64,000 nucleotides of DNA from Romanomermis culicivorax (lineage: Eukaryota > Nematoda > Enoplea > Mermithida > Mermithidae): contig CAWUHX010000086.1 in the NCBI GenBank assembly GCA_963922205.1, positions 186,001 through 250,000 of the forward strand, given 5' to 3'. Positions 4,493-29,403 of this stretch are shown piece after piece. Within the stretch, counting starts at the first letter, position 1, and every line of letters starts with the position of its first letter. The notes under the pieces were generated by a model that saw only the letters and a program-made list of their open reading frames with translations, ran no database searches and had not been told where the DNA came from. A program made the position numbers and the translations under genes.

Positions 4493-4596
4493 AACTGTTC
4501 TTTCCCAGATCGTGCTTTTTAGGGGAAAAAATGCGGAAAAGGAAAAAATTTTTTACGATCTTTCCTCATTTGGGTATCGGATAGAGAAAAGATGTA

Positions 4597-5448
4597 CAGT
4601 CGAACACGGTTAATGAACACTCTGGATATTGAGCATTTACGCTTAATAAACACACTGTAGCACAGTCCCAACTCAATTCCTATAGTTTCTTATATGTTGA
4701 TAATACGGTTAATGAGCACACGGTTAACGGATAATGAACACGCCTGGTAGTATCTCTGCATATCTTGATACACGTTAAATTCTACGTTTAATGAACAGGT
4801 GTTGACGGATATTGAACATGCTTTAATCTACGCTTAGTAAACACAATGTGTACAGATAATATGTACACTTTATCGATTACAGAAACTTCCAGAAACTTCT
4901 AGAAACATCTTAATGCAACACAACGTCTTGTCTTGTTGTCTTGGTGCTATTGTACATTGCTTTTTTTTCTTGTGTCAAGTGTGTCATGCCGCCTGTCAAA
5001 AAGAATGTTGTTTGGCTTGAAACAAAAAAAAGTTACTTCCGGCGATATGAATGAACAATCAATTGTTGATTTAGTGAGAAAACCGGACGAACCAGAAATT
5101 GAAACCACTGAAATCGATAGTGACTGTGATGATCAAGGCGCTGTTCAAAAAATAGATACGTTTGAAGACGCCAAACGAGCTATTTCGGTTGTCAGAAATT
5201 TTTTGTTTTCAAAGGAATCCTCTGATGAAATACTTGCCTCAGTAAATTCTATTGATGATTTTATGGATACAAGTCATATTGCTCTGTTGAAACAGTCTAA
5301 AATAACGTCATTTTTTGAATGATGATAAGTGATTCATGTTGAAGTAAAATTTATGTTGAATTTGACGGAGTTCTGATAATGAACACTTACGGATAGTGAA
5401 CACTTTTATTTCGGTCCACTCGGGGTGTTCATTAACCGTGTTCGACTG
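4597..5448 (+). mobile_element. Tigger/pogo-like DNA transposon, internally deleted
   Basis: The element begins CAGTCGAACACGGTTAATGA and ends with the exact reverse complement; the inverted repeat is 24 bp without mismatch. It is flanked by TA on both sides (4595-4596 and 5449-5450), the target duplication of the Tc1/mariner/pogo group. Next to each end are further degenerate copies of the word ACGGTTAATGAACA in the same orientation as the nearer tip, which look like extra transposase binding sites. Only the C-terminal part of the transposase remains, so it is non-autonomous. It inserted into the C0 MITE and is therefore younger. Confidence 0.88.
4933..5322 (+). pseudogene. C-terminal remnant of a Tigger/pogo transposase
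   Basis: A 129-codon open frame lies inside the TA-flanked element. Its last part reads FEDAKRAISVVRNFLFS, then LLKQSKITSFFE and stop. An alternating acidic/helical stretch closed by K-Q-x-x-I-T-x-FF is the usual tail of Tigger/jerky transposases. The DNA-binding CENP-B-like region and the DDE catalytic core are missing, so it cannot catalyse transposition. The hydrophobic first 18 residues are probably read-through of deleted sequence rather than real protein. Confidence 0.7.
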
Positions 5449-6329
5449 TATTTTAGAAGGTAAGAATCTAAAATTTTTCCGACGCTTCGCGCCGGATGTA
5501 TTTCCTAGCTCAGGCACGGCTTTTAACATGTCCACCTTCACTCATCATTATATAATAGTTTTCATCATCTTAAACGTATTATATCATGTTTTAAGTGCTA
5601 ATCTTCAATATTTTATATTGATATTTAAGGAAGATCCGCATTTTTTCCTTGACACATTTTTTTTAAAGATCAATGATGTCAACTCTCTAAACTTTCTGAA
5701 GCGATTATTCCTTTCTTAACGTAAAATCAATTGAAAAGTTTCATGAAAATAGTTTTGGGACATTTCTACTCTTCTTACTCGCATCTTTTTTGGTCAAGTT
5801 CATGAAAGTTTACGAATAAATTATAAATTTTTCAAATTCTAGAAATTAAGAATTTCTGACAGAAAATTCGAATTCAATTTTTGAAATTACGTGTCAGAAA
5901 ATTGATTTTCCAGCGTCCCAGAATGTCAATACAAAAAAAAAATTCCGGCGCTTCGCGCAGGCAACATTAACATGTTTTTCGGGCTCTCAATTGTCATCAT
6001 AGAACACGTAACCGTCGATTTATCATCTAATGTTAAGTTATTATGCTCTTGGATAGTTATCTGGAAACTTTGTTCCACAATGCTTCTAAATTAGACTTCA
6101 AACTCAAGAATTTCATTTTTTCCTCAATTTCAATTAATTCACGGCTCCAACATATAGGAAGTTTGAAAAAGCTCAAAAACACTTAAACAAAGCGTCTATG
6201 AGTATTTTTAAGCGAAAAAACGACTAGGGAAAAATGAGGGAAAAAATTGTGACATCTTTCCCTATTTTCGAAAAGGCCTGGAGGAAAAACAGTGGTTTGA
6301 ACTTACGTTACGTCATACATGTGACGGGG

Positions 6330-7061
6330 CAGTGTTTTTTTGTGCACGGACATTTGTGCATATTGACACAGAGAGCCAAAAAAATTTGTCCCAATGGCAC
6401 AAAAATTTTTTTCCAGCCCAAAACATAACTGAAAACCTTTAAAAAGTTTTATGCCAAAAGTTTGATAAAACATAACTACGTATACTTTCACTGCACTAAT
6501 TCGCATAAAAATCGTGAGAACTTTATTTTATCTAAGCACGTCAGTGCGATAAGAGAGACTGATCGTGAAAACAGTTTATACGATTCGAAAAGAAATCGGA
6601 TGCTGCGAGAATGCAAACATATTTATAGAATTTGTCAGGAAATTTATACACTTCTCCAATTTTAGGCTACGAATTTCAACAACGTCGAAAGTCGCGCCGC
6701 GTAAATTTTTCGTTGAAAAATTGGGCCAACAATGTCAAATTTTTGTTTGAATCAAACACCAACACCATATAAAAATGTGGGTTCCCAATCTCACTGAATG
6801 AACACTGAACAGAGGAAATATACTATTCGAATACAATTCTCTCAGGTTCTAGACAAATAAAAGTCATTAATAAATACTTATTGACTCGGCGCGAAGCGCC
6901 CGGAAAAATTTTGCGTTTTCAGTCTCTAAAATGGTTAAAAATTAAGGAAATTCTTCGACCATTCAAAAAATTTGTCCCAATTCGCAAGAATGCCCAAACA
7001 TTTCTGTGCCATTCCAAATTTTTTTGTGTCAAAAACCATGTTTTGGCACAAAAAAACACTG
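6330..7061 (+). mobile_element. hAT-like MITE A1 (subterminal word GTGCCAA)
   Basis: Left tip CAGTGTTTTTTTGTGCACGG and right tip GGCACAAAAAAACACTG are inverted repeats. Internal words GGCACAA and TTGTGCC recur in both orientations near both ends. The GC hairpin (CGGCGC GAA GCGCC) lies at 6887-6902. No 8-bp target duplication is visible: flanks are TGACGGGG and GGGGGGTC. It may therefore be a recombinant of two copies or have lost a flank. No protein is encoded. Confidence 0.7.
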
Positions 7062-7309
7062 GGGGGGTCAGGCGACTCTTTTGGGGCCTGGGGTCAGATT
7101 CCACAAAATTTTACGGGAAGAGTCACTGAAGGAAAAATATCGATTTTTTCATCAAGAAATTCAAAAAAATGGATCAAAAAATTGTAATTTTTGTTTTATA
7201 AACCGTGTAAAATGTATTATTGGTGCAGAGCGCCGAGAAAATTGACGTTTTTGACCACTTTTAGTTCAAAAATTGACATTTTTCATCAAAAATTCAATTT
7301 TTTTCAGTA

Positions 7310-7445
7310 TTTTTCCGATAAAAAGCATGGGGGTCTCTATGACTAGCACATGGCTAGCCATAGGATTGGAAAATCTTGGGGAGGCGCCCAGCCATATGGC
7401 CGACGATTTCTGGAGGGGGGTTCCTTCCTATAGCACTTCCCCCCA
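7310..7445. repeat. Dispersed repeat H, copy 1
   Basis: Contains TAGCCATAGGATTGGAAAA and a run of conserved words (GGCG, CCATATGGCC, GCACTTC) that recur in the same order at 14386-14515. The ends were not defined. The stretch 7062-7862 otherwise holds only G-rich and AT-rich sequence without a gene. Confidence 0.5.
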
Positions 7446-7862
7446 ATGTATCCGTGTGGTATGCATGGGTGTAGCGGCATGGGGTGTAGTGGGTGCAATT
7501 GCACCCCATAGGCTGAATCAAAGTTCTGAAAAAATTTTGCCAAGCTATCAAGTCAGAGTCACCATTGCAATTTGCAACGCGTGAAGGAACATTCACTATG
7601 CCATTGCTGGCTCGGCCTCGGATCTTTTGTGAAAAAAACAACAAAGCGAGTGTCAGAATTTGCTGTTATTTCAAACTACTTCAAGGAAGCCAGTAAGATT
7701 GACTCTTCTGATATATATGGAACATTTTTGCAGAAGTGTCTCGTCGCATTAAACTGTAATAAAACATTGTAAATTACAATCTGACAACAGCTTAATCGCT
7801 GCCTAATTTACTTGACAGTTTGTTGCAACATTGCTACTATAAGTGAGTAAAACGTTTTCAGT

Positions 7863-8438
7863 CACTGTTTTTTTCACATTTGCACTATAATGTGGAAAAA
7901 AAATTTCAGGTCTTTCCACGATTGTGAAGGAAAAATTTGGGGTTTTCATACTGAAAAGATGCATTTTGGTGCATTCCTCATTATTTATTACCAAGCTCAG
8001 GCGCGGCTTTTAGCATGTCTACCTTCACTTACCATTTAATCTTTAATAGTTTTCATCATCTTAAACGTATCATTTCATGTTCAATTGGCAATCTTAAATA
8101 TTATATCTTTATACATTTACTGACGATATCCGCATTTTTTCCTTCATATATTTTTTGAGAAAGATCAACACGTCAACTTTCTAAACTTTTTGAAGCGTTT
8201 GTTCCTTTCTTTACGTAAATTGAATTCAAAAGCTTCATGGAATTATTTTTGGAAAATTTCTACGCTTCTGACTGATAGCTTTTCGGCCAAATTTATGAAA
8301 GGTTACGAACAAATTAAAGGTTTCAAAAATGGCTCAAAAACGAGGATTTTAAGACGGAAAAAAAATTTTTCACATGTGGAAAAAATTTTGACCTTTTTCC
8401 ACATTTGTGGAAAAAATTTTTTGTAGAAAAAAACAGTG
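7863..8438 (+). mobile_element. hAT-like MITE C1 (subterminal word TTTCCACA)
   Basis: Starts CACTGTTTTTTTCACATTTG and ends GTAGAAAAAAACAGTG. The flanks are TTTTCAGT (7855-7862) and TTTACAGT (8439-8446), 7 of 8 identical. The right part repeats CCACATTTGTGG-type palindromes. The interior aligns with C0 and C2 but has lost the hairpin segment, explaining its shorter length (576 bp). Confidence 0.8.
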
Positions 8439-8446
8439 TTTACAGT

Positions 8447-8925
8447 GCACCCCATAGGGTAAAATCCTGGCTACGGCGCCTTTCCGACTTGAAAATCCTA
8501 ACTTTTTTGCCATTTGACAAAAGAACCCAAATTTTTTCGCCAGAAAGGCACGGATTCGGCGGGAAAAACAGCGGCTCCCCCACAGTGTTTTTTTGCTCAA
8601 AACTTTTTGCCCCATTTGAGGAAAAACCTCAATCAATACCCCGAAAACTTCCAGTTTTACCCCTACCCGAAAAATCTGACCTTGGGGACCTCCGCCGCCA
8701 ATAAACCAACATTTTTTTCAAAAAGACTCGAGCTATGACCTGTTTGTAGATGAATATTTAAGTGAGTTTACATGAGCAAGAGAATAATTCAACAGCATAA
8801 ATTTTATATATATTACTTTGACGACATGAAACAACCTAATTTTGACATAACAGGTTGAATCAAACAGTAAACTTTGATAAAAAGATACCAATGAAAAAAA
8901 GAATTTTAAAACTGAATCTGAATAG
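8447..8925. other. Repeat debris, no gene
   Basis: Contains a further transposon-type tip, ACAGTGTTTTTTTGCTC at about 8580, followed by TTTTTGCCCCATTTGAGG. Its partner end was not identified. The remainder is AT-rich and without coding signal. Confidence 0.4.
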
Positions 8926-8933
8926 CTGACAAT

Positions 8934-9843
8934 CACCGTTTTTTCCCTCAAATGGGGTCTTTTGAGAAAAAAAAATTTCGGGAATTCAAAGCCGAAAAGA
9001 TGCGTTTTGGTGGACTTGAAAAGGTCAAAATCCCAAAATTTTCTGGCGCCTCGCGCCGGTCATGGGTATAATAATAACTATTTTGTATCAGGCGCGGCCG
9101 TTAGCATATCTACTTCGACTTACTATTTAATGCTCAACAGTTCCTATCAAACAACTTAGCTCGTTTCATTTTCTAATCGTTAAAAGTCAGTCGCCGAAAA
9201 CAGAGACATTTTTCATCAATTGTCAATTTTTTCTCTCGATGCTTGGAATTTTTTAAACGTTTGCAACCTAAACTTTTGCTTTTATTGAAAATGGAAATTG
9301 AAGACATCATTCTAGGCTGTAATTTTAAAACTTCTTTTCACGAATATGTTAGAGGGATTTATTTTCCAGCGTAAAAACCCGGAAAATTTTTCCGGCGCTC
9401 CGCGCCGGAATGGGGAACAAATTACACTTCATCAATCTGATTTTAATTTATTTTCCAACGTTTTGAAGGATCATTTTTCAGCGTTTCAGAAAGTGAAAAT
9501 CCAAGTAGATAAAATTAGATGATCCTAATCCGAACCACAGAAATGTTGATAGCGGATAAATTCATGAGAACTCCATCGTTAACATGCTTTGTCCGCTCCT
9601 GTAGAACACCAATATATTCTTCATGCCCTCATTTTGACTAACATGACCAGAATTTTCACTTTCCTCATTTTTGCGGGTTTCTGACTCCAAATACAACAAA
9701 ATGCTTCGGTATGCTCTTAAAATGCATAAAAAAGCATCCGTTTTAAACGTTTTTACAAATGTGGAAAATTTTTGCAAAATGAGGAAAAAAATTTTGGGTC
9801 CGGTTCTCATGTGGAAAAAATCTTCGAAGAAAAAAAAACGGTG
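8934..9843 (+). mobile_element. hAT-like MITE F1 (subterminal word TTTCCTCA), unoccupied copy
   Basis: Starts CACCGTTTTTTCCCTCAAAT and ends TCGAAGAAAAAAAAACGGTG. Flanks CTGACAAT (8926-8933) and CCGACAAT (9844-9851) agree at 7 of 8 bases. Two GC hairpins are present: CTGGCGC CTC GCGCCGG at 9043-9059 and CCGGCGC TCC GCGCCGG at 9392-9408. It is homologous along its length to F2 (11635-13954) but lacks the two insertions found there, so it shows their empty sites at about 9066-9073 and 9516-9523. Confidence 0.85.
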
Positions 9844-9869
9844 CCGACAATCTGACATAAAGGTATGAA

Positions 9870-10130
9870 CTGAACCACAAGGCTTTTTTCTGCAAAAGCC
9901 AGGTTCCAATGTGCAACTTGGGAAAAAATTTAGGTTGCACAGTTAAATTTTTGGTTGTTCACTCTAAAATCAATAAATCAGCTTAATTTTATCGGAAAAA
10001 ATACCAAAAGCTGGTTCCTTCTATTTCATTCGATTTGCGTCGGTTTCAGGCTTTTGAAACCAAATTTTTTGAGTTTTGAAGAGAAAATTGAGAGATTGGT
10101 ATGAGTAACTTGTTCGGCGCCTAGTGCCAA
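9870..10130 (+). repeat. Dispersed repeat G, copy 1 (word TTGCA / TGCAAC)
   Basis: Shares its whole length with 61568-61830 and 63279-63515: a T-run followed by TGCA, then CAATGTGCAACTTGGG, then TTCATTCGAT and a final GC hairpin remnant near 10113. The outer ends were not defined; by analogy with the neighbouring MITEs it is probably one end of a related element. No coding capacity. Confidence 0.65.
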
Positions 10131-10492
10131 AACGCTGGAATGAACCTTTACAGCTTTTACTTCCCAGACATAAGGTTTAATTTTTCAGTGAATTCATATT
10201 CAATGAATTTTCAGTCGGGCAGGCTACAATTCAAAAACTAGGAAAGCAACCAAGAATTTTGATTCTTCAATCAGCAAGAATTTCTACTTGGACTCGAAAG
10301 GTTTTAATCACACAAATGTTAAAATCTTTTTAAAGACCGCAAAAAGACTTTTGGAAAATAAACCGAGAAAATCTTGCTTTTCGTCAAATTCTCAAAAAAA
10401 CGACACAGGATCAAACATTTATTCATAATATATTGATAATTAAAAGCTATATGCACTAGCTGGAATGAAATTTTCTAACCGCGACTTGGAAT

Positions 10493-11277
10493 CAGTGTTT
10501 TTTGTGCACGGACATTTGTGCCAATTGGCACAAAGGGCCAAAAAAATTTGTGCCAATGGCACAAAAAAAATTTTCAGCCTTAAAACATACTGAAAACCTT
10601 TAAACAGTTTTATACCAAAAGTTTGATAAAAACATAAGGATTAACTTAAGATAAGACACTTCAAACGCACTAATTTGCAAAAAATCTGTGCCTGCCTCAT
10701 TTTATCTGACACGTCAGTGAGATAAGAGAAACTGATCAGTAAAACGGTTTATATGATTCAGAAAGAAATCAAATGCTGAGAGAATTCGGATATTTTATTT
10801 ATATTAATATAAGTAAGGTAAGGTGAAGTAATTGTCTTCAACATAGCGTTGCGATATTTGAATATCACTTGCATGATAGTTACGAAACTTTTAAGGGCGG
10901 GTTTACTCATTTGGTGTGAATTATTTCACGTCCTACTGAACTCTACCACACGAAACTTTGATTTTCGGGTCGGAAAAAGAATGCTGATTCTAAATCTAAC
11001 TTTGTTTTTTGCTATATGTAGTTTTTTTAGAGCCATCTGTTCCGGAATAAGAACTATCCAACTATCATCTGAATCGAAGTAAATTATACCCCGCGATTCG
11101 GCGCGCAGCGCCGAAAAAATTTTGCGTTTTCGGCCCCTAAAATCACTAAAAATCGTGGAAATTTAGTCTTAAACCAGTCAAAAAATTTGTGCCAATTTGC
11201 ACAAACGCTCAAAAAATTTTGTGTCAATCCAAATTTTTTTGTGCCAAAAACCATGTTTTGGCACAAAAAAAACACAG
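10493..11277 (+). mobile_element. hAT-like MITE A2 (subterminal word GTGCCAA)
   Basis: Left tip CAGTGTTTTTTGTGCACGGA, right tip GGCACAAAAAAAACACAG. Flanks CTTGGAAT (10485-10492) and ATTGGAAT (11278-11285) match at 7 of 8 bases. Carries the A-family palindrome TTGTGCCAATTGGCACAA and a perfect hairpin TCGGCGC GCA GCGCCGA at 11098-11114. The small open frame at 10849-11082 has no family resemblance and is not conserved in the other A copies. Confidence 0.85.
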
Positions 11278-11354
11278 ATTGGAATAATGAAGAAAAAGTA
11301 TTAAATAATTAAAATTCAGCGCGAAGCGCCGGAAAATTTCGACAATTTTCGGTT

Positions 11355-11493
11355 TTATAACGCGTAAAATGCATCTCCAGACAGGAAACCATCAAAAAAT
11401 TTTTCCTCAAAGTGCTGCCTAAGCACAAAAAAATTTTCCTCAATTTCAAAAAAAGTTCCTCAAAAAGCATCGATTGAGGAAAAAAAACTGTGA
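11355..11493. repeat. Dispersed repeat E, copy 1
   Basis: From ATAACGCGTAAAATGCATCT to GAGGAAAAAAAACTGTG this matches 26363-26520. Its right tip, A-run then CTGTG, is of the same style as the neighbouring hAT-like MITEs, so it is probably the right half of a sixth family. A hairpin remnant (CAGCGC GAA GCGCCGG) lies just left of it at 11317-11332. Confidence 0.55.
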
Positions 11494-11824
11494 CGCCCAC
11501 AAAGCGCCAATTGCTACAAAGCATTGCGGAGCGAGATCTGTCATCAATTTAATTGGTGAAAAAATTTTATACCTTCAATTTGATTGGTCGAACATTGTAG
11601 TCTACTCCTTTTTAACGGCGAGTCCAAGCCTAAGCACTGTTTTTTTCCTCAAATGGGGTCTTTTGAAGAAAAAAATTTCGAAATGAGAAAAAAAATTTTG
11701 GGTATGGTTCTCATTGTGCAAAAAATTTTGGGGAATTCCAAACCGAAAAGATGCGTTTTGGTGGACTTAAAAGGGTCAAAATCTCAAAATTTGCCGGCGC
11801 TTCGCGCCGGTCACGGGTACAATC

Positions 11825-12036
11825 CATACCTGTACTTGGGGGGCTGGGGGGAACCCCCCCCCAACTTGGCCAACCCAGTACCCAAAATCATTTCCACCCC
11901 CAACCCCCCCCCCCCCCCAGTTGGGAAAAAATTAAAAAAATTTGCCAAAAAGTGTATGTTTTTTGGCCTTTTTTGGGAAAAATTTCGACTTTTTCCTACC
12001 CCATCCCCCAAACTGGTCGGAGGTCTTACAGGTATG
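11825..12036. mobile_element. MITE M6, CATACCTG family
   Basis: Begins CATACCTGTACTTGGGGGG and ends TCTTACAGGTATG. Flanks GTACAATC (11817-11824) and GTACAACC (12037-12044) match at 7 of 8. Its body is a long C-rich/G-rich strand asymmetry, which makes spurious proline- or glycine-rich reading frames. The site is empty in F1. Confidence 0.85.
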
Positions 12037-12546
12037 GTACAACCTTGACTATTTTCTATCAGGCGCGGCCATTAGCATATCTACTTCGACTTACTACTAA
12101 TTAATGCTCAACAGCTTCTATGAATCAAGTTAGCTCGTTTCATTTTCTAATCGTTAACATTCAATTATGTCGCCCAAAATTGAGATTTTTCATTAATTTT
12201 CTCAATTTTTTCTCTCGATGTTTGGAATTTTTTAAACGTCTGCAACCTGAACTTTTGCGTTTGATGAAGATGGAAATTAAAGACGTCATTTTAGACTGCG
12301 ATTTTAGAACTTATGTTTATGAATATCTGTTGGAGAGATTTATTTTCCAGCGTTTTAGAATATAAAAACTGAAAAATTTTTCCGGCGCTATGCGCCGGAA
12401 TGGAAAACAAATTATACTTCATCAGTCGGATTTTAATTTATTTCCCAACGCTGTGAAGGTTCAATTTCCAGCGTTTTAGAAAGTAAAAATCCAAAAATTT
12501 TTCCGGCGCTTCGCGCCGGACCAAAAACTAAATAACATTGGATGAT

Positions 12547-13604
12547 CAGGGTTGGCAAGACCTGGGTTTTTGGGTTTTTCTGGGTTTTTCTGGGTGCATT
12601 TTTTTGACAAAATTTGGGTTTTTGGGTTTTTCTCAATTCTTTTAAAATGAGGATTTCATCGTTAATTTGAGGATTTCATCGTTAATTTCCCTGTGGCAAA
12701 TCCAGAACGAGATTGAGGATTTCATCGTTAATTTCCCTGTGGCAAATCCAGAACTAGCTGACCAAAAAAGTGCTGTGTATCAAGAATTGACGCAATACAT
12801 GATTGAGGCAAAATTACAAAAACAAAATAACTCATTTCGCTACCAGACCAGATGCTCGTCAAAAAGAAAAAGTCTGTCCTTGAGTATTGGCTCACAGATG
12901 GAGCTGACTGGCCGCTGGTGCAACGAATCGCTCTGAAGGTACATAGATAACATGTTTTTTCTCAATGTATTACATGTATAAAAAATTAATTGAGGTTTTT
13001 TCGCTCGTTGTCTCTACCGCATCTTCGGAAAGAAACTTCTCTACGCTTGGCTATGGCTTCATACATTCCAAGCTGCGAAATCAATTGTCGACGGAAACAG
13101 TGCGCAAACTGGTATTCGTTAAGACAAACTTTGGGCTGCTAGAAAGTTCCCGTGACTGTGAATCTGATGAAGTGAGCGAAGCCGAAGCGTGAAATTTGAT
13201 TTCCGTAATTCTCAATTTTTTAAAGTGACATTTCAATTTTTAGTGTTTAGATCATGCAATAAAAAATTCAATAAACAGCCAATCGTTTTAATGAGCCAAA
13301 TCGATAAAATCGTTGTGCAATGTGCAGTCGCGTGACTCGTGTAAATATGTTACAACCAAATGTATAGTCAGTCTTGAACACTGTTCAGCAATTTAATACA
13401 CTTTATACGTTAAAAATAACATTCTCATATATATTTTAAGTAAAATGATCATTCATTAGTACAAAACTGGAACAAAAACCCTAGAAAAACCCACCAAAAA
13501 CCCAGAAAAACCCACCAAAAACCCAGAAAAACCCAGAAAAACCCACCCAAAAACCCAAAAACCCAAAAATGAAGATTTCAAAAACTGGGTTTTTGCCAAC
13601 CCTG
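12547..13604 (+). mobile_element. hAT transposon, internally deleted, with perfect ends
   Basis: The element starts CAGGGTTGGCAA and ends TTGCCAACCCTG, a perfect 12-bp inverted repeat. It is flanked by perfect 8-bp duplications TGGATGAT (12539-12546 and 13605-13612). Both subterminal regions are built of repeated CTGGGTTTTT words (left about 12557-12630) and the complementary AAAAACCCAG words (right about 13477-13590). It keeps only a decayed C-terminal third of the transposase. It sits inside F2, so it moved after F2 did. Confidence 0.93.
12667..13192 (+). pseudogene. hAT transposase C-terminal remnant (dimerisation region), frameshifted
   Basis: Three plus-strand pieces follow each other in different frames. 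First, 12667-12936 with ELADQKSAVYQELTQYMIEA. Next, another frame near 12850-12945 gives EYWLTDGADWPLVQRIAL. Then 12965-13192 gives STASSERNFSTLG and HSKLRNQLSTETVRKLVFVK, the classic hATC motif (ASSER-FS--G). The catalytic core is absent and frames shift between pieces, so no enzyme can be made. A roughly 40-bp internal direct repeat (12649-12754) precedes the first piece. Confidence 0.85.
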
Positions 13605-13954
13605 TGGATGATTCTAATGAGAGCCATAGAAATGTTAATAGCGGATAAATTCCTGAGAACTCTATCGTTATTCGTTAACATGCTTCACCCGCTCCTGTAG
13701 AACACCAATATTTTTTCATGAGCTCATTTAGGCTAATATAACTAGAATTTTCTCAATTTTTTTCTCATTTTTGCAGGCTTCTGACTCCAAATACAACAAA
13801 ATGCTTGGGTATGCTCCTAAAATGCATAAAAAAACATCCGTAGCCACATTATAAGCGTTTTTAAAAATGAGGAAATTTTTTGGAAAATGAGGAAAAAAAT
13901 TTTGGGTCCGGTTCTCATGTGGAAAAAATCTTCGAGGAAAAAAACGGTGAGGTG

Positions 13955-14008
13955 AGCCTAAGCCTAAGCAAGCCTAAACGTGTATAGACCTAAGCCTAAG
14001 TCTAAGCC
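13955..14008 (+). repeat. Degenerate GCCTAA hexamer array (telomere-like)
   Basis: The sequence reads as repeated CCTAAG units with a few interruptions; on the other strand this is TTAGGC, the nematode telomere hexamer. The F2 element inserted into it, so one unit (AGCCTAAG) also lies on the far side at 11627-11634. The array is too short and impure to be a telomere. Confidence 0.55.
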
Positions 14009-14385: not shown

Positions 14386-14515
14386 ATGGGACTTCTTACG
14401 GCTACGGGCTAGTCCATTTTGGCCATAGGATTGGCAAAAGTTGAGGCGTCACCATAGGGCCAGCGAAGAGACAGACCAGTCCACGGTGGGATGAGTTTAT
14501 GGCACTTCGCCATAA
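14386..14515. repeat. Dispersed repeat H, copy 2
   Basis: Matches 7310-7445 in order, including TAGTCCA, GCCATAGGATTGGCAAAA and GCACTTCGCCA. Ends undefined and non-coding. Between 14009 and 14385 I see only MITE debris, including an inverted copy (14052-14087) of 11519-11557. Confidence 0.5.
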
Positions 14516-18000: not shown

Positions 18001-21000
18001 TAATCGTGATATTTCACATGTTTGACTTTCCTTTAGCTCTGTGCTAGAAACAAAAAATGATTCCGAAAATCGAAATATTAAGTTGAAAATTTATTGGTCA
18101 AGCTTTCATAACACTTCAACAGTGCGAAGTCTAAAAACTTGTTGTTGACTTAATGATTTATACTTAACATAAATGACATGTGCTGCCTCGAAGCAAGTCT
18201 TGACTAGAAACATAGGGATAAACAATTAGAGCTGCTAAAGTTGCAATTTGGACTTCAACATGATGGAAGCAACACAATAGAAAGATTGTCTGAGAAACGA
18301 AATCTGACATATGAGACGAACTTGTGAATTTAACAAAGGCTTATCAATGAGCAAAGGCCGTCCTCACCACGTTAAGTGTGATAGAAATTTCACGTAGTTG
18401 CAAAATTTAGGTACCGTGTAAAACTATGCTAGAACGATGAAACTTACTTTTCGTCCCAAACTCTATCAGATCTGTGAAAAACGACCAAATTTCCATTCGA
18501 ATCGGTCGTGAGTCCAGATATTTGTCCAAAAGGTATATTCGAAATCGGCCAATCTTTGCTTTCAACGACGCCTAAAATGAAAAACGCTTTCGTGCTAGAT
18601 AAGAAATGGTGAGACACTTTGCATGCATAATTAATGTAGCACCAGAAAACTTGAAGGTAGCAGAGCATAATTTAAAAATTTGTGAAAATCTACACCACAC
18701 AGAAAAAGTGAGGACTTGGTGAAAATCTACAAAACTGAAAAAAAACCATATCGCATCGAATTATGACAGATCACAATACTCGTGCAAATCGCAAACTATC
18801 ATGCAAGCTCGACGAGCAACACGACATCTAAAAGTACTCGGTTGATTTTTCATAGATTCCGCCGCACCGTCACTATTATCATTATTATTGGCAACAACAC
18901 GTGCCGTTTCATCGGCCCCGTACCCCAAATTTTGCTGTTGTTGATATTCGTCAACTCTTGGCGGCCAAATGCCGCGATTACGGATGCTGAATGGGTAGCC
19001 GGGGCCAGGTTTCTTGATGACGTGTTGTTTAAATTGTTGCGCCGAAGGATCGACGACGAAAGAATCGTCGTTATTGGTATCGTATGATGGATAACCACCG
19101 CGATTCAAACCGCCGAATTGACGTTTTTCGCGCAAAATTTCATTTTCGTCATTCGAGAAGACCAGATTTTCATGATCAAAATATGAAAAGGAGTATGAAA
19201 GATGAAGAAAATATTTTTTCCAGTAAGAACGCCACTTTTCAACGAGGGGCCACTTGCTAAATAGAATAGCCGTCTTGTCCTTTCAAAAATTAATCGCCCA
19301 TCAGCAAGGAAAAAATTGACAACGTACATTTTGAACTTTAGATTATGAATACGAAAAGTGCGAACAATTTTTTGAATAAAAAACGAAAGATTGGAATGAA
19401 ACGAACTGAATCGTAGGAAAAATAAAGTTTTGTGAAGTCCGAAACAGAGTATTTTCGAGCTAAGACAAAAAACTTTGCTACTCAAATCCTGTTTAACGAT
19501 TCAAAAATTTATGCGACGCGAGAAACCGTTTTTTGACTTCGTGAAACTTTGAATGTCAAATTCATTCTTTTTCAATTTTCCGACTTAGAAAAACTTGCGC
19601 TCCTTTTATCAGCTTTTTTTATTTCGTTCTTTATTCCAGCAATCGGGAATGTAATCACTCCATTCAGAAATGTTACTTATTACTTATTGATGTAAAAGCT
19701 CCAAGAAGCGTTTTTAAGAAGAGCAAAAAATTCGTTAATCACAAGCTACACCATACAATTCGAGAATTAATGTAAATTTCAAATGTGAGTTATCGGAAAA
19801 TAATAAAATTCTAGAGTCTATTAGTTGAATCTAACCAAAGTTTTTTTGAGGCCTCCCAAAGCCACAAGAAAATTACCGAATCTATGATCAGCCGCGTGCG
19901 CCGTATGTAATAATTGTTGATTTTCGTCGAACGGACTGTAAGCTTCAGCCGGATATTTTCGGAACAAGTTACTGTCACCCGGCCACGAGCAGGCAGCGTC
20001 GCTGCTTCCGAAAGGATTGGGGTGATCGGCGTCCACATAATAATACATGTAGAAATTGCACATCTCGTCTTTCCCGAAAGATCTATAACAAAGATGCAGA
20101 GTTCGGATTAAACACATTTATTAAAGGTTCGAAACACAAATTACAGGGTTATAAGATCAGAATCAAAAAAATCGTGGATTCGGAGGCGACTTACCCGATA
20201 TTAGTCTCAGTTTTTCGACCAACCGAATTGTAAATACACTGCGCAGCCAATGTGTCGCCATTAAGTATTTCAACAGGTTTATCGACAGGATAAAAACGCT
20301 ACAAACAAAGAAGAAATAATGTGCAAGTAACATCATTCATAAACAAAGGGGGTTACTTGCGGCCACTGAGGATTACCCTTGCCGATTTTTGTCCATTTAT
20401 CGTCTTTATATTTGAAGGCGGATATGATTCTACCTAAAATTTATGAAGGAAAGTTTTAGCCACATTCTGTATGTGCCGATAAAACTTTGTCATTTCTTTT
20501 GTTCGCCATACCTGTGCATTAGGGGTATGGTAGAGGTATTAGCCCTACCAGGCATCATTTACCATTCGTAGATGTCGGACGGATAAGTATTCCCTTCCGA
20601 GTTTTTTAACCATGTCTTAGTTCCTACCAGTCTTCTTAATCCAGAACCCACTCTACTTAAACTTTTTCGACAGGAGCCCAGTTACTATTAAAAGATTTTG
20701 GCCGTTTAAGCTTTCTCTGCTTGGGTTTTCTTGGACAAAACCAGTTTACTAACCTGACAAAATCTCCTGTTTACCCCCTGAGGCTGACTGGCCATGCAAA
20801 GATATGTTGTTCACTATTAACATGTCGATTCATATTTGCAAAAAATTTGTCATTCAATCAAACAAACAACTGACTGAAAAAGATTATTGAGAGAAAAGCA
20901 GAATACGTCAGCCCAATTGCTACACAAGCCATAGGGAACAATTCAGCGTGTCAAAGTAATGGGGAAAAATTTTTTTAGTTCGAAATGACTAAATTCGTAC

Positions 21001-23096
21001 GACCCTTGAAACAAGTCTCTGTTGATTTATGATTTCACTTCTGGGCATTTATCTAGCACCTTTGAAACCAAAAGTACAAAAAATCCCAAATTTTACGTTT
21101 CCACAACGAAGAAATGACAAAACATTAGTCTTCAATGTATAAACTTTGTAACCTCCAGAATTTTAGATAGTACCTCAAAAAATTCTCACCTAATGAATGG
21201 GCATGGGTTCTATACGCGAAAGGATGCACAACTGCTTTTCCTTCGTATTTACACGATATGTTGATCGGAAATTCTGAAATAAAAGGAATAAAAAATTGAA
21301 CTTGTACCTATTAATCAGAAAACACAAAATATGAAAGATCTTTATATATGTAAGACCCAATAATAATAGTGAAACACAGTCTGGAAATCCCAGTGATCTG
21401 AACGTCTAGGATAAAGGAAGATATTTTCGATTTTTTATGCTTTCAAAAATCCCAATATTATTCTAACCTTTAGTTTCCGGTGGGATGGATGGATAACCAG
21501 CAACAAATAGATAAATACCGCCCAAATAGGGTGGCTTCTTCGTCGACATTTTCAGTTTGACGCCGGAATAATCATAAACGGACCCTAAATACTGCATAAA
21601 ATTAGAGAGGAAAATCACCGACGAGAAAATTTTTCAAGTTTAATTGAACATCAACTGGTCATGTTAACTTTTTTCGCTTTCAAATCAACATCATTTTTTG
21701 ATATTATTCGGCCGACATATAGCTTGAAAAATGAATATTATTTCAACTCAACATCTATAGAATTCAAATCGGAAGTCAGAAGCAAGAAATAAGACTTAAT
21801 ACTTACCGACAAAAGTAGTCGCGTAATGCACTTGCAAAACGTAATACGAAATTCCTACACTTTTTCCCACAGGAACACCAACTCCACCCGGCAAAGTTAG
21901 CGGCGGTGCGTTTCGCGCCCAAGCGTACAGTATGCTCTGCGATGAATGACAAATACTGTGATGGAGGCAATTCCACGGTTCGCCGGGAGTGTGCCCCGGT
22001 ACGTCGCAACCGTACAGGAGTAAGTGATGGACTCTGTCGGCGTTAGCCGTTGGAACGAATTGCACTGAAAAGTAAAGGTAATGTAAAACAAGGAGCAAAA
22101 AGAGTGATCTCACTCGAAATTTTTCGGGTTCCAGAAGAGTACACTTTTTCGTGTAACATAACATTAATAAAAAGATAAAAATTATAAATGAAAGATTGTA
22201 AACTCACATCTACTTTTTAGAGTGACCTCCATGCTGGGTAATAGCAGATGCTCTGGTCATAAATGTAATTGGGAGAAGTGTCAACTCAGATGATGATGAC
22301 CTCCAAAATTTGTAAATCATATGGCTGAAATAGGCTAGCCATAGAAACCTCATCACTTCGGCCGAATAAAATTGAAAATCCAACTTCGTGGTAGAAAACA
22401 GTCATTTTCAAACAAAAAGTAGTCAAAGAAGTCAATTTTACTGGCGCTGCGCGTTATAAATACATATTTTTATGGTCTTTTAGACAAAAAATAATATATT
22501 TGATCATTTTCCTGACTTTTTACGCGAATAAATCGAAATTTTTTTCTTCAACCCCTAAACCTTTGGGCGAACGATGACCCTCTACTCATAAAAATGTTCG
22601 CCTGACCGCACCCGGATCTACGAGCTCTGCCACATGTATATGATTGCAGCTAAGCCTGATTTCTGAATTGTTGCCAGTTTTCAGCTCAGAATCGATACCA
22701 TTTTTGTCATTTTGCTCGAACTAGTCCAAAACGGTTGATTTCTAACTGATATCTTTGTTTTCTGGCTAGTTGATGTCACTATCTACGAGTCTAACGGTGT
22801 TGTCCAGAATCGAGAAATACAGGTTTTAACTTACCAATATAACCAGGATCTGAAACTTCAACAGCGAAACACAGATATTCTTCATCCTAAAGCATAAAAA
22901 ATGTTTATAATGGTGTAAAATATATAAATTTAAAAAATACCTGTGACGGTTGAACACCTGGCATATTCAGATCGACACTGAAATTTGATCCCGCCGCGAC
23001 GATTGGCCGCTTCCTTGAACAGTGTACAAAATTGATGACCGACAAAATAATTAAAAGGAACAATTTTGAAGACATAATGATAATAATAAATGACAA
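15018..23096 (-). CDS. PAM: Bifunctional peptidylglycine alpha-amidating monooxygenase (PHM + PAL, membrane form)
   Basis: PAM makes C-terminally amidated neuropeptides in the secretory pathway: PHM hydroxylates the peptidyl-glycine alpha carbon (copper, ascorbate) and PAL cleaves it to amide and glyoxylate. Exons: 23096-22941, 22886-22835, 22064-21807, 21584-21468, 21273-21190, 20433-20357, 20298-20195, 20082-19877, about 19136-18838, 18571-18448, 17712-17599, 17268-16964, 16912-16721, 16575-16457, 16398-16341, 16285-16238, 15942-15727, 15697-15594, 15182-15018. Exon 1 encodes a signal peptide (start may be 23075). PHM copper ligands are visible: RVHHLLLYGC, LQVHY, HAH, DEMCNFYMYYY. PAL follows: FHRSDRVWDENSF, FYLPHGIF, HFCKPSGVAV, ADGYCNDR, FTLPHALS, HFQRPH. 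Exon 17 gives one membrane span followed by CCCCRFKKRG; the tail is acidic (ELTEDSEDEDTVYNRS). About 930 residues, close to mammalian PAM. The acceptor of exon 9 is unresolved; every other junction fits. Confidence 0.95.
15215..15298 (-). other. Possible in-frame cassette exon in the PAM cytosolic tail
   Basis: Between PAM exons 18 and 19 a polypyrimidine tract and ACAAG acceptor lead into an open stretch encoding RKRNIPDLDEFLSKSAFKAD and eight more residues, ending at AAA|GTACAT. It is 84 bases (28 codons), starts and ends in phase 0, and would keep exon 19 in frame. Skipping it gives SHKGFQPL, which matches the conserved KGFDRL of vertebrate tails, so the cassette is inferred to be optional at best. 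Confidence 0.4.
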
Positions 23097-23632
23097 TATT
23101 CAACGATTGTCGCAATCGAATGTTCCTGTTCCTGAAACATTATTGAATCAAACTTGGATAAGCTTTTATTATTCATCTGGAGAGAGCCGTTAATTCAAAA
23201 AACAAAACCGTTGAGAACAGACTAGAAAACTTTCTTAAAATACTAAATTAGATCGAATTGAAAATTATTTTAAATATATTGAAAATTTGGTCAGACTGTC
23301 TGTAACGAGCGAAAAATGCTTTCTCATTCAAACGGACAAGAAATGTCGAGAGAATACAATAAGCTCTATAGGAATTTCCAGGAATTCCATTTCTTCCCTG
23401 ATGAATTTCTCATCGCGAATTTCTTCTTAATAACGTAAATCAATAATGATAGTAAAAAAATTCAAAAAGAAGTGGTAAAAAATCAAAAAGGTTCGATGAA
23501 AGGTCATACGAGCCTAGACGCGAATAAATACCGCGCGTCATGACTAGGCAACATATTCCGTATATCGATTTATTTGTTGCAAAAATCTTTTTCAAATAAG
23601 CATGCTGGAAATTTCTTTTTAAATATTTTATG
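23097..23632. other. PAM upstream region
   Basis: Presumed promoter and 5' untranslated region of PAM on the minus strand. AT-rich, without a recognisable exon, repeat end or convincing core promoter motif. Confidence 0.4.
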
Positions 23633-23937
23633 CATACCTGTAAGAAGTCCGACCAGTTGGGGGGGTAAACCGAAAATTTTGGGGTGGGGGACCCGAAATT
23701 TCCAAAATTTTGGCGAGGGGGGTCCAAAAGACCCCAAAAAAAGTCGGAAAAATTTCGAAAATTTTCCCAAAAAGGTCAAAAAAGCCACTTTTTCCTATTT
23801 TTTCCAATTTTTCCTAGTTTGGGGGGTTGGGTATAGGGTTGACCAAGTTGGTGGTGAGGTTTCCAACATTTGGGTATACGTACAGGGTTCGAATATGTTG
23901 GGAGTGGGGGTCTCCCACCCCACCAATTACTGGTATG
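23633..23937. mobile_element. MITE M2, CATACCTG family
   Basis: Left tip CATACCTGTAAGAAGTCCGA, right tip AATTACTGGTATG. Perfect 8-bp target duplication ATTTTATG at 23625-23632 and 23938-23945. G-rich on the plus strand through its body. It lies just upstream of PAM exon 1 and could affect that promoter (inference). Confidence 0.9.
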
Positions 23938-24593
23938 ATTTTATGGTGTTTTCACACGATAATTTTATTTACAAGTATCTGGTCGCAATACCTGAGACTT
24001 GACTCGAGTTAGATTTTAGCTTCTATACATCAGATTCAGCTTAATTTACGTCGAAAGCATACAGGTGCTCGGAACCAGCTAACTCCAGGTTTAACTTTTT
24101 CAATCATTAAAACCGAACTTGGGTTTCAAAAAATGACGATTTTTAATTGCAACTTGAAGTGATGAGCTCGAGTTCAAATCAAGTCCGAGTTTATTTATTC
24201 CATTGAATTGTAAAATCTGAAGTTCGAGTTTCAATGCTCGAGTTAAAACCAAGCTCAAGTTTAACTGATGATATTGGAACCGGCTCCTGAACACAAAAAA
24301 ATTATCCGAGTCCAACTCATCGTTACGGATTATGGAATAATAAACGTAACATAAATCTGTTAAGTTCGTCTAAATTCGAAAGTGACCCAACTTTGAACTT
24401 TCTCTATCCTTTCTACTCTACTCAAAAGATCAGGATTTCACACACGACTACCATATTCGAGGATGGGGCGGACATTAGCTTTGAACGCCATAATTTTGAG
24501 TTCATTGGTGCTTAAATTGAAGCATTCGAAAATTGGATTATAGATGACCTCAGGAGCTTTATTGGTCAGTGTTTTTGCACGGTACAAATTTTT

Positions 24594-24848
24594 TTACCTC
24601 TTGATGTACTTGGCGTGTAAAAACTCAGGGGTGCAAAACGTTTCTGGCATTTTTACACGGTGCAATAAGAGTCGTGCCAAAGAAACACTATTATTGTTTA
24701 TATAATCTACAATGTAGAAAAAACTGAATTTTTCATCAACGTAGGCACCAAAATATTTCATTTCAGTGGCAGCAGCAAGATCATAACTTTCCATTTTTTG
24801 ATAATTGCATTTGAATGGGATATTTTTTTCAAGATGCTGAATGCGCAA
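24594..24848 (-). pseudogene. Fragment resembling the end of a non-LTR reverse transcriptase
   Basis: An 84-codon frame includes MKYFGAYVDEKFSFFYIVDY followed by INNNSVSLARLL. The pattern K-Y-x-G-x-x-x-D-E-K-x-S-F-x-x-x-I-D-Y-I is typical just after the catalytic fingers of LINE-type reverse transcriptases. The YADD-bearing part and everything upstream are missing, so this is at most a remnant. The match is by motif memory only. Confidence 0.45.
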
Positions 24849-24928
24849 TTAGGCGAAAAGAAGATTATATAAGATTTATAACAAAGAACAATTAGGACTG
24901 GCCAAGGTGAATCATTGCGATTCTGTGG

Positions 24929-25210
24929 CATACCTGTAAGAGGTCCGACCAGTTAGGGGGGGGTGGAGGTCCAGAAATTTCCAAAATTTTAGGGAGGGGA
25001 TCAAAAAGACCCAAAAAAGTCGAGAACATTTCGAAAATTTTCCAAAAAAAGGCCAAAAGCCACTTTTTTCCTAATTTTTTCCTAGTTTGGGGGGGGGGTT
25101 GGGTATAGGGTTGACCAAGTTGGGGGTGGGTATCCCAAAATTTGGGTATAGGTTTCGACCAAGTTGGGGGTGGGGGTTCCCCCAATCCCTCCCCCCAAAT
25201 TACAGGTATG
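24929..25210. mobile_element. MITE M3, CATACCTG family
   Basis: Left tip CATACCTGTAAGAGGTCCGA, right tip AAATTACAGGTATG. Perfect 8-bp duplication TTCTGTGG at 24921-24928 and 25211-25218. The best-preserved copy; a good reference for the family. No coding capacity. Confidence 0.93.
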
Positions 25211-25218
25211 TTCTGTGG

Positions 25219-26189
25219 TCATTAGCGTTATCAAAATCGTTCAAGTTAAGCTAATACAAACGAATAACTCAATCTATGACATGTGGATGGAAGTATTTGC
25301 TTCCCGACATCTTTGTCATAAGCATTTATGAAACAGACTGCAAATTCCATTATTTCTTTCAAATAAAGCTTGATTCTACATGCTAACAATTTTATTCAAT
25401 TGATCTCATTTCATTTTCATTTGATGGTTGACGCATATAGTGAAATGAATTATCCCCGGCTCCGACCCCGGCCGAGGCAAAAAAGCCTGCCCCGTCCGTT
25501 CCCTACAAAACGATATCTTTCAGTTTTTAGTTACGGACATATCGATTTTCGGGTGAGTTAAGAAAGTCGGTCTCTATGCATCCGGATTCACTTACATAAT
25601 TTATATGCAAAAATAGCATTTTTCGGCCTTTCGGAAAATTTTCGAAGTTTTTGGCGTTTCTTCAATTTTTCTGGGGAACCTCAGGATTTGGAAATAATGG
25701 GTACCCTGCCGCTGTTTTTCTTAGCCGACGTTTTTGCCAAATGGGAAAAAGGGTTTTCCCTTTCCCCTTGAGGAAAGGGGAAAGGGTCTTCCAAGTTTTT
25801 TTCCTAATTTCAAGTCGTTTTTCGCTTAAAAATGCTTATGGACGCTTTACTCAAGTGTTTGGAATTTTTTTACAAGTCGGTTCCCTTCCAAATTATGGTC
25901 CAAACTGGCATTTTTGGACTCCTCAAAATGTCAGCCATCCAGATCAGTTCGAAAATCCAGGCGCTGATGGCATTCAGGAACTCATTTGCCTAAAATCTGC
26001 ACGCATCTCACATAGTCCTTGTCACTACAGAAGAATCCTACCTACTTCAAGAATCGAACCTGGTCCACCAGCCTATGGACTTAATGCGTTTATCACTACA
26101 CAATTTCACCAGAAAGTATAAACACTATATTCCTTTAAGACCATTGATGCTATTTTAACTAACAACTTCATTTAGAAGAGCCTCAACAG
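25219..26189. other. No convincing gene; repeat-like
   Basis: A 157-codon frame at 25651-26121 has no family resemblance. Its start overlaps MITE-like text (GGGAAAAAGGGTTTTCCC and a complementary AGGAAAGGGGAAAGGG), so I do not call it a gene. Confidence 0.4.
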
Positions 26190-26362
26190 CGTTGCGCCCT
26201 TCGGGCGGGGTTGGGGAGACCCCCCCCCCTAACATGGCTAACCATATACCCAACCCCCCAGACTTGAAAAAAATTGGCAAAAAAATGCCTTTTTTGGAAA
26301 AGTTTCGACTTTTTTTTATCCCCCCCCCCCCCAACTGGTCGGACCTCTTATATACAGGTACG
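26190..26362. mobile_element. MITE M7, CATACCTG family, left end lost
   Basis: The body (GGTTGGGGAGACCC, then ACCATATACCCAACCCCCC, then AACTGGTCGGACCTCTTA) and the right tip TATACAGGTACG match the family, but the CATACCTG left tip is absent. To its right the DNA continues as repeat E, so the insertion went into an E copy whose left half was then deleted. Confidence 0.65.
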
Positions 26363-26520
26363 ATAACGCGTAAAATGCATCTCCGGACAGGAAACTCTAT
26401 AACCCAATCAAAAGAACCATCAAAAAAATTTTTCCTCCAAGTGATGCTTAAGCACAAAAAAAATTGCCTGAATTTCATGAAAAATTCCTCAAAATGGTCC
26501 ACTGAGGGAAAAAACTGTGA
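26363..26520. repeat. Dispersed repeat E, copy 2
   Basis: Begins ATAACGCGTAAAATGCATCT and ends GAGGGAAAAAACTGTGAAC. Nearly collinear with 11355-11493 apart from a short insertion (TCTATAACCCAATCAAAAGA). Confidence 0.6.
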
Positions 26521-27608
26521 ACACATCCCAAAATTTGCTACGAGAAAAACTGGGCTAAAACACTATTTTTTTCTACGAACTTTTTTCCACAAATGTGGGA
26601 AGAGGTCAATTTTTTTCCACATGTGGAAAATTTTTTGACAAATTTTATTTCCATATGTGAAAATTTTTTCCACGTGTGGAAAAAGTTTTCATCTTAAATC
26701 CTCGTTTTTCCGCTTGAAAATGCTCATAAACGCTTTATTTAAGTGTTTTTGAGCTTTTCAAAGCATTTTTATAATCATTCTGAACATATATCTCAAAAGT
26801 TAGATTTAAATTTTGTGTTCATGAATCGTAATTTCTAGAAATTTATCATATACAGAAAATTGTAAAACCACTAAGTTAATTTGTTCGTAACCTTTCATAA
26901 ATTTGGCCAAAAAGCTATGAGTCAAAAGCGCAGAAATTTTCCAAAAATACTTCCATGAAGCTTTTGAATTGAATTTACATTAAGAAAGGAACAAACGCTT
27001 CAAAAAGTTTAGATCGTGTCTCAAAAAATGTATGAATGAAAAAATGCGGATCGAAGAAAAAAAATGCGGATTAAACATGAAATAATACGTTCCAGACGAT
27101 GAAAACTATTAAAGATTAAATGGTAAGTAAAGGTAGGCATGCTAAAGGCACGCCTGAGCTTGGTAATAAATAATAATGATTATTAAAGTTATAGGGCGCG
27201 AGCGAAGCACCCAACGTTTTTTTTGCGCACGGACATTTGTGCCAATTGGCACAAGAGGCTAAAAAAATTTGTGCCAATGGCACAAAATTTTTTTTCCTGC
27301 TAGGAACATACTGAAAACTGCGGAAAAGTTTTAGGCTAAAATTTTGATAAAAAGTTAACTTTTAACGCATTTATTTTTTGTAAAAACCGTTCCCAACCTA
27401 TTTTTTAGCTAGCCATGTCAGTGAGATAAGAAAAAACTGTAAGTAGTTCACGACGACTCGAAAAGAAATGGAATGCTGAGAAAATTTAAATAACTCTTTC
27501 AGGAAGTTCAAATTTGATTCAATTTTCGACTAACGGACCTAAGAACAAGTAAAGACTAGTGAAAATAAAGTCGAAAATTGTGTAAATTCTTGCTCCGGGC
27601 AATGTACC

Positions 27609-28603
27609 CACTGTTTTTTTTCCGCATTAGCACTATAATGTGGAAAAAATTTTTGAGGTCTTTCCACAAATGTGGAAGAAAAATTTGGGGTTTTCATATT
27701 GAAAAGATGCAGTTTGGTGCATTTTGGGAGGTCCAAATCTCAAAATTTTCCGGCGCTTCGGGCCGGTTGTAACTTTAATAATCATCATTATTTATTCAGT
27801 AGCTCAGGTGCGGCTTTTATCATGTCTACCATCATTTATCACTTAATCTATAATGGTTTTCATCATCTTGAACGTATTATCTCATGTTTTAATTGGTAAT
27901 CTTCATGATATTTAAAGGAAGGTTCGCATTTTTTCCTTTTGAGAAAGATTAATACGTCAAGTCTCTATGCTTTTTGATGCGATTATTTTTTTGCTAACGC
28001 AAAATCAATTCAAAAGCTTCATGGAAATATCTTTCGGAAATTTATACTCTTCTCATTCATATATTTTCGACCAAGTTCATGAGAGTTTACAAATAAATTA
28101 CAGAATTTAAAATTTTTCAAGTAAAATTCTAGAAATTACGACTATTGAACACAAAATTGGAATCAATTCTTGAAATAAATGTTCGGAAAATTGATTTTCC
28201 AGCGTCCCAGAATGTCAATATACCCAAAAAAAATTTCCGGCGCTCAGCGCCGGAAAGATTACCATCTTTTTAGGGCTTTCACTTGTCATCATAGAGCACT
28301 TGACCATCGATTTCTTATGTAATTCAAAGTCAATTATGCTCTTGGATAGTTTACCAGAAAATTTGTTCCACAATGCTAGTAGGCTTTAAAGTCGAGCATT
28401 TCAATTTTTTTCAATTTTAATGAATTAACCTCTAAAAACACCGGAAGGCTTGAAAAAGCTCAAAAACAGTGCGATAAAGCGTCTGTGAGTATTTTTAAGC
28501 GAAAAAACGAGGATTTTAAGACGAAATAAATTTTTTCCACATGTGGAAAAAAATTTGACCCCTTTCCACATTTGTGGAAAGAAGTTCGTGGAAAAAAACA
28601 GCG
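27609..28603 (+). mobile_element. hAT-like MITE C2, inner layer of the nest
   Basis: Starts CACTGTTTTTTTTCCGCATT, ends GGAAAAAAACAGCG. Perfect 8-bp duplication AATGTACC at 27601-27608 and 28604-28611. Two hairpins: CCGGCGC TTC GGGCCGG (27750-27766) and CCGGCGC TCA GCGCCGG (28237-28253). CCACA/TGTGG words are iterated near both ends. Confidence 0.9.
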
Positions 28604-28613
28604 AATGTACCAC

Positions 28614-28837
28614 CATACCTGTAAGACCTCTGACCAGTTGGGGGGGGAGGTAAATCCGAAATTTTAGGGGGAGGGGTAGAAAAAAGTCGAAATTTTTCTC
28701 CAAAAAGGCCAAAAAACATACACTTTTTTGCAAATTTTTTTAATTTCTTCCAAACTGGGGGGGGGGGGGGGTTGGGGGAGGTTGGATGATTTTCGGTACA
28801 GGGCCCCCAACCCCCCCCCCCCCCAAGTACAGGTATG
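28614..28837. mobile_element. MITE M4, CATACCTG family, with very long G and C runs
   Basis: Left tip CATACCTGTAAGACC, right tip AAGTACAGGTATG. Perfect 8-bp duplication TGTACCAC at 28606-28613 and 28838-28845. The left copy overlaps the C2 target duplication, so M4 arrived after C2. It contains a G run of more than 15 bases near 28758 and a C run near 28810, good candidates for quadruplex structure. Confidence 0.92.
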
Positions 28838-29403
28838 TGTACCACCACCAACAATATCGCATTTTCTATTTGAATGAGTCAAGGACAAAAAGTAAGAATT
28901 TCAGTTTTATAAATCCGAATGTGACTGAAATTCAGAATTTATTTCGACTCATCATTCATTGACAACCTATAAACTTTGCTGCAACGATGTCGATACACTG
29001 TCCGAAGAGAACCCATTCGCGTTCGGGACAAATACGAGTAGATAAAATTATATTCATTGACTCGGCGCGAAGCGCCGAAAATTTGTTTGAATTTTCGGCC
29101 TCTAAATCGTCTAGAAATCAAGGAAATTTAATGTTTGAACAGCCAAAAATTTTGTGCCAATTGGCACAAACGCTTTTTTGTGCCAAAAAAAACATGTTTT
29201 GGCATTGGCACAAAAAAAACACTGGAAGCGCCGGAAAATTTTGAGATTTTGACCTCCTAAAATGCACCAACCAAAATGCATCTCTTCAATATGAAAACCC
29301 CAAATTTTTCGTCCACATTTGTGGAAAGACCTCAAAAACTTTTTCCGCACTCCAGATTTTTTTCCTACAAGTGCAAATGTGGGGAAAAAATAGTGGGCTG
29401 AAA

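Follow-up and report, generated by a model that had tools for sequence, protein, structure and literature searches.

Transposons of the hAT type have tips of the form nAnnG, and Hermes generates an 8-bp duplication, as do the elements that are the subject here, namely several families of miniature inverted-repeat transposable elements (MITEs) in a stretch of 64,000 nucleotides from the nematode Romanomermis culicivorax (contig CAWUHX010000086.1, positions 186,001 to 250,000; hereafter the window, whose own numbering is used below) and elsewhere in the same assembly (359 Mb, 595 contigs). In the parts of the Hermes account drawn on here (PMC10368747), the transposase site requires an adjoining AT-rich stretch and is paired quasi-palindromically, with phasing being crucial; the present elements resemble Hermes in having a short motif repeated in both ends, an AT-rich neighbour, a quasi-palindromic pair and asymmetric ends, and by analogy those findings would explain the end layout described below. 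Unlike the Hermes system with its BED domain, however, a single genome here holds many words on the same layout, and the sole binding domain to have been read is zf-C17orf113-like. For Herves, also a hAT element, the sections consulted (PMC3143072) report a transposase-bound subterminal motif, CG/AATTCAT, at both ends; this is one element with one motif, and no exchange is described there, unlike in the families considered here. The CGGBPs, which are domesticated hAT DNA-binding proteins, have hAT-derived zinc-finger regions of diverse DNA specificity according to the portions of the work drawn on (PMC8097297), but these are mostly host genes across species, whereas the present case concerns element ends within one genome. 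No account of word exchange of this kind was found in the literature searched, outside which most subscription journals lie. To our knowledge, how specificity changes in transposases whose elements carry many sites is unsolved, all the sites seemingly having to change together. The families can be seen as a natural record of a possible joint change of transposase and DNA address word: one genome offers matched pairs, a mixed family and end-swapped composites together, and the same genome contains relatives of a zinc finger, 38-58% identical to it, that make word and finger directly comparable.

The reading that we favour, and consider probable, is that words matched to zinc fingers lie on a fixed hAT end scaffold and are replaced either as whole sets or by end capture. 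In a fuller version, on which our judgement is nearly balanced and leans slightly against, a single zf-C17orf113/DUF4371 hAT lineage may have repeatedly rewritten its entire set of binding sites in one genome while keeping its end architecture, with at least eight codes coexisting and with bodies switching codes by end capture. Five words (GTGCC, TAGCC, CCACA, CCCCA and CCTCA) are placed firmly on the scaffold, and three others (TTGCAC, CTGCAC and CGCC) less surely.

The families are labelled by subterminal word, as A (GTGCC), T (TAGCC), C (CCACA), K (CCCCA), F (CCTCA), P1 (TTGCAC) and P2 (CTGCAC). The matched pairs mentioned above are C with K, A with T and P1 with P2, and the mixed family is F. 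An earlier note on this stretch had described A, C and F as having CASTG tips followed by T-runs and being flanked by 8-bp duplications, and this is borne out: across the window and the collected genome loci (L001 and L010 omitted), 21 pairs of CASTG-like tips with T-runs satisfied both requirements, pairing of no fewer than 10 of the 14 tip bases and duplications with no more than one mismatch, against 0.17 per shifted-flank control. With the paired-tip filter dropped there were 23 pairs, against 2.0 in controls. (A separate tip census and the hairpin census left out L001-L010, as duplicates or foreign.) Six of the elements in Table 1 were recovered by these rules, and two further duplications in the window were recognised by eye. 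The CASTG plus T-run elements are real insertions. Most ends carry CASTG or CACCG tips, which fit nAnnG, several being mutated, and the 8-bp duplication is likewise that of a hAT element; lengths are 326-1378 bp in 19 of the 21, with 2013 and 2835 bp where nested inserts are present. Being short, largely non-coding and present in many near-identical copies, the elements are MITEs, although T retains coding remnants.

The words themselves were counted over the outermost 110 nt at both ends, against a background of 300 dinucleotide shuffles. GTGCC occurs 82 times in 11 A elements (shuffle mean 5.9, maximum 13), TAGCC 16 times in 2 T elements (mean 0.8), CCACA 33 times in 5 C elements (mean 1.75, maximum 5), CCCCA 14 times in 2 K elements (mean 3.2) and CCTCA 24 times in 6 F elements (mean 1.37, maximum 5), while P1 has TTGCAC 9 times and P2 has CTGCAC 8 times (means 0.6 and 0.2). 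The own words of A, C and F exceed all 300 shuffles, and own words are iterated across most of the copies examined: 7-9 per element in 10 of the 11 A elements (3 in 6330-7061), 8 in both T elements, 7 in both K elements, 7-8 in four of the five C elements (4 in 7863-8438) and 2-6 in F. Words of other families are scarce, at 0-2 each, giving a nearly diagonal matrix except for F, whose ends are mixed, with 24 CCTCA, 16 CCACA and 11 CCCCA across the 6 elements. The element at 4493-6294, which had earlier been assigned to F, is of C/K type instead (identity, with its nested insert excluded, 0.80 to K and 0.77-0.78 to C as against 0.52 to F) and has 2 CCTCA words in its ends.

Evidence for replacement of words as sets comes from matched pairs of families. 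A C element (L048) and a K element (L045) are 0.839 identical over 971 columns, which is their full length, and at about 9 aligned sites (judged by eye) CCACA in C corresponds to CCCCA in K, two of the K sites being further mutated in one copy or the other; were the sites independent at that divergence, the chance of such co-change would be about 2e-8 for 7 sites and about 7e-11 for 9. The ends of A and T follow the same pattern, with GTGCC against TAGCC. A two-site C/K pattern blind to the variable base, with at most one mismatch allowed, was found at 1207 places in the genome (reversed-pattern control, 0), and among the 100 of these that were listed, in contig order from C1 to C33 and without mismatch, 81 were CCACA+TGTGG, 18 CCCCA+TGGGG and 1 CCCCA+TGCGG, with none mixed; this shows clean families rather than 100 independent events, because MITE copies descend from few founders. 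The corresponding A/T census, whose pattern carried one extra N and whose 58 counts are therefore a subset of copies, gave 51 AC/AC, 1 TA/TA, 6 single-site deviations and no TA/AC mixture. A pattern blind to the word and describing layout only occurs at 167 places in the genome (control, 0); 42 of the 45 readable rows were K-like, 2 were F-like and 1 had a new word, CGCC, with its reverse complement GGCG at the second site.

A second manner of exchange, in which foreign ends take over a chassis, also exists, to judge from composite sequences. At L053:2198-3138, with the duplication GTATAAAC on both flanks and TTGCAC ends outermost, the order is P1 end, C body (85-758, 82% to C), old C right end (789-841) and P1 end. 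Counting L053 itself, at least 24 full-length copies of this type lie at 95-100% among the 40 that were scored from 6105 candidates. A genome search with 34 bases of the L053 end, allowing 3 mismatches at most, gave 513 places (control, 0). At L052:3734-4832, flanked by the duplication GTTTTGAG/GTTTTGGG, CTGCAC ends surround a K body that includes the K right tip. The left end of the enclosed body is lost in both, and nested insertion followed by deletion would yield such composites. The earlier note had suggested that different transposases might parasitise one chassis, and this gains support in another way, through capture of the chassis by foreign ends. It might even be supposed that word exchange is mostly of this kind, ends being grafted by nested insertion or gap repair, with point-by-point co-change rare; the existence of P1 and P2 composites with two different bodies, one composite being highly amplified, and the frequency of nesting speak for this, but we think it unlikely, since C/K and A/T retain the word spacing across the whole end, as an unrelated graft would not.

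When the ends of A, T, C, K and F are laid out from the tip inward, the words fall at corresponding spots with similar A- or T-tracts between them. One representative per family, with the tip removed, was aligned and compared with 500 shuffles of one partner: on the hairpin side, 8 pairs among these five families (T-F and C-F being left out) gave z values of 3.4-8.9, and at the other end 7 pairs (T-K, T-F and K-F being left out) gave 3.6-7.8, with at most 1 of the 500 shuffles as good in either case. In a blastn comparison among the window and the collected loci, the best match of a T end to an A end had E 1.5e-7, and its matches to ends of C, F and K had E 8e-5, 3e-4 and 3e-3, respectively, while the 45 nt preceding the hairpin are common to A and C/F/K (z 3.3-5.0 over 5 pairs). 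The idea of a shared chassis with exchanged words accordingly stands as regards the scaffold and the swapping of words as a set; the hairpin, which had also been thought fixed, is not.

The hairpin, GGCGC-N3-GCGCC, was counted 72 times over 330,499 bases; its loop is of 14 types, and a further 27 stems have one mismatch. The window holds 11, against 0 in shuffles. The hairpin is present in window elements as had been claimed, but in A it is confined to one side, and T has no hairpin of its own in either of 2 copies. The stem seems conserved because the loops vary more per base, a comparison from which shared descent is not removed. The possibility that insertions favour the hairpin was considered and rejected, only 1 of 23 empty sites matching it within 2 mismatches (bulk, 1.5%); a second empty site with the hairpin, at 27212, had 3 mismatches. 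No relevant account of GCGAAGC hairpins in transposons was found in the literature searched. Among viral contigs, the A-family word had no match, and the C word matched one contig, which was not used.

As to the enzyme, T has 29 full-length copies (40 scored of 149 candidates) with remnants of a hAT-like protein, and in a longer relative, L060, a T end bearing 4 TAGCC words is followed by a frame that begins 238 bp from the tip. A predicted zinc finger in it, 382 bp from the tip, resembles zf-C17orf113 (E 2.4e-4, 21.3 bits); apart from this the T N-terminus matched no Pfam family, zf-BED included, at E up to 1, and the BED-type DNA-binding domain that had been anticipated did not appear in T, whose finger is the sole one read. 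One word, TAGCC, is in this way paired with one putative finger. A genome search with the L060 finger produced 140 matches, of which many were short or fragments of T; those spanning most of the finger were at 89-99% (T), then 57-58%, then 52 down to 38% identity. L055, considered as an autonomous parent, was rejected, having tips of TAGGGATG type by eye with T merely nested inside it.

The elements would, on the reading preferred here, be non-autonomous hATs whose ends provide landing pads for a transposase bearing a zinc finger at its N-terminus. Each pad is a short GC-containing word with an A-tract behind it; two pads often face each other, and the word would be the specificity code. Tip (CASTG plus T-run) and pad spacing would stay fixed because, as we propose, phasing of the sites is required by an enzyme acting as a multimer; by analogy, a word that varies at constant spacing is compatible with an enzyme of altered finger and unaltered multimer. 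By one route the word set would be replaced stepwise through mixed states, tracking a changed finger, and F looks like one such state; by the other, a chassis would gain foreign outer ends, through nested insertion or repair, and then be moved by another enzyme, as for P1 and P2. The analysis demonstrates the common scaffold, the set-wise differences between words, a composite with swapped ends that has been amplified, and a coding relative with a zinc finger for TAGCC; we infer that the finger reads the word, in which direction words changed, and that a single enzyme lineage lies behind them all.

A number of results weigh against this. The small number of MITE founders limits the weight of finding no mixed case in 100. 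The P ends align unevenly (P2-P3 5.3, P1-A 4.4, P1-C 3.8, P3-A 2.7, P2-K 1.5 and P2-A 1.4), z against the other families being 1.4-4.4 and 41 of 500 shuffles matching P2-K and P2-A. The end of repeat G, which iterates GTTGCA (by eye) and had been proposed as a fourth family, does not align with A, T or C any better than shuffled sequence does (z 1.1-1.6, with 33-80 of 500 shuffles equalling it), and its membership is not upheld; no duplication was seen around it, though no systematic search was made. T protein pieces submitted separately matched no Pfam family; joined by X they gave DUF4371 at E 0.031 and 14.6 bits, below the curated cut-off, and with a longer X-joined query this match was lost, only the finger remaining. 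The zf-C17orf113 match of L060, of which the first 651 bases were read, is itself under the curated cut-off of 29.5 bits. A coding relative on the scaffold was found for one word only, TAGCC, and the one divergent relative read (L061, on C425, 58% finger identity), a candidate for a second pairing of word and enzyme, was rejected, as no tip was found in the 481 bases examined.

Some of these points would also be expected if unrelated hAT transposases had converged on a similar end layout, in which case the families would have independent parents and T-runs, A-tracts and site pairing would account for the likeness: alignment of the P and G ends is uneven or fails, self-comparison revealed no likeness between A and C bodies beyond the hairpin region, and other hATs with TAGGGATG or TAGAGATG tips occur in the genome. 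Such convergence is nonetheless slightly less likely again than general end capture, given the full-length similarity of C and K (84%), the 45-nt hairpin flank that A has in common with C, K and F, and the blastn matches of the T end to the ends of all four other families. Least probable is that one transposase tolerates all the words (as CCNCA, for example) and that these drifted and were homogenised through founders with specificity unchanged, for although a single base distinguishes the words of C, F and K, F carries two words and founders were likely few, drift without selection would hardly alter 7-9 sites alike in one founder.

Table 1 Transposable elements and repeats in the window. "Census" marks duplications recovered by the rules given in the text.
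Feature	Position	Strand	Duplication or remark
C/K-chassis element, TTTCCC-like words (by eye)	4485..6302 (body 4493-6294)	+	GTTTGAAC at 4485-4492 and 6295-6302 (by eye)
Nested element of another kind inside 4493-6294	4595..5450	.	26-bp terminal inverted repeat, perfect (4595-4620 vs 5425-5450, 100%)
A element (GTGCC), decayed, 3 words	6330..7061	+	matching duplication not found
C element, 4 CCACA words	7863..8438	+	TTTTCAGT/TTTACAGT (census)
F element, 2 CCTCA + 2 CCACA	8934..9843	+	CTGACAAT/CCGACAAT (census)
Repeat G (GTTGCA)	9878..10127	+	other copies ~61567-61827, ~63277-63514
A element (GTGCC)	10493..11277	+	CTTGGAAT/ATTGGAAT (by eye); words counted over 10493-11276
F element split by hAT at 12547-13604	11635..13949	+	exact adjacent duplication not found
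Separate hAT, tips CAGGGTTGGCAA	12547..13604	+	TGGATGAT on both flanks
Outer C element	26561..29395	-	GGCTAAAA/GGCTGAAA (census)
A element, inserted at GC hairpin of outer C	27212..29224	+	GAAGCACC/GAAGCGCC (census)
C element inside A 27212-29224	27609..28603	+	AATGTACC on both flanks (census)
A element beyond shown range	59968..61345	+	GTTCGTTC on both flanks (census)
CATACCTGTA-ended repeat	11822-12047, 23632-23947, 24928-25219, 28612-28845, 60393-60833		self-comparison

Nested repeats are densely packed in the window, as self-comparison indicates, and Table 1 includes a three-layer stack of a C element in an A element in the hairpin of an outer C. P-type elements are probably present as well: 1434-1523 matches the P3 end (75%, E 9e-9) and 24628-24689 the P1 end (77%, E 4e-6). 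The short repeat whose ends are CATACCTGTA-like, and which has long runs of C or G, is sometimes inserted in these MITEs. In the separate hAT at 12547-13604, which has CAGGG tips, AACCCA occurs 13 times in the ends (shuffle mean 1.5), and a coding remnant at 13007-13189 matches PF05699 (E 1.5e-5).

Elsewhere in the genome, elements of 1.5-4.7 kb at L040-L045 and L051-L054, with TAGGGATGGGC-, TAGAGATGAA- or TAGAGATGTA-like tips and 8-bp duplications, surround matches to the hAT dimer domain and form another hAT group with tip variants. An open frame of 864 aa with DUF4371 and hAT dimer matches lies at C77:1206770-1208641 (-) and C126:715789-717660 (+), and several other dimer-domain matches in the genome score equally. 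The window also holds animal-like genes, with NHL and Cu2_monooxygen exons, and an open frame at 63735-63998 (-) without a Pfam match, which is repeated in L032 (98% over 61 aa) and by eye resembles the C-terminus of a transposon protein.

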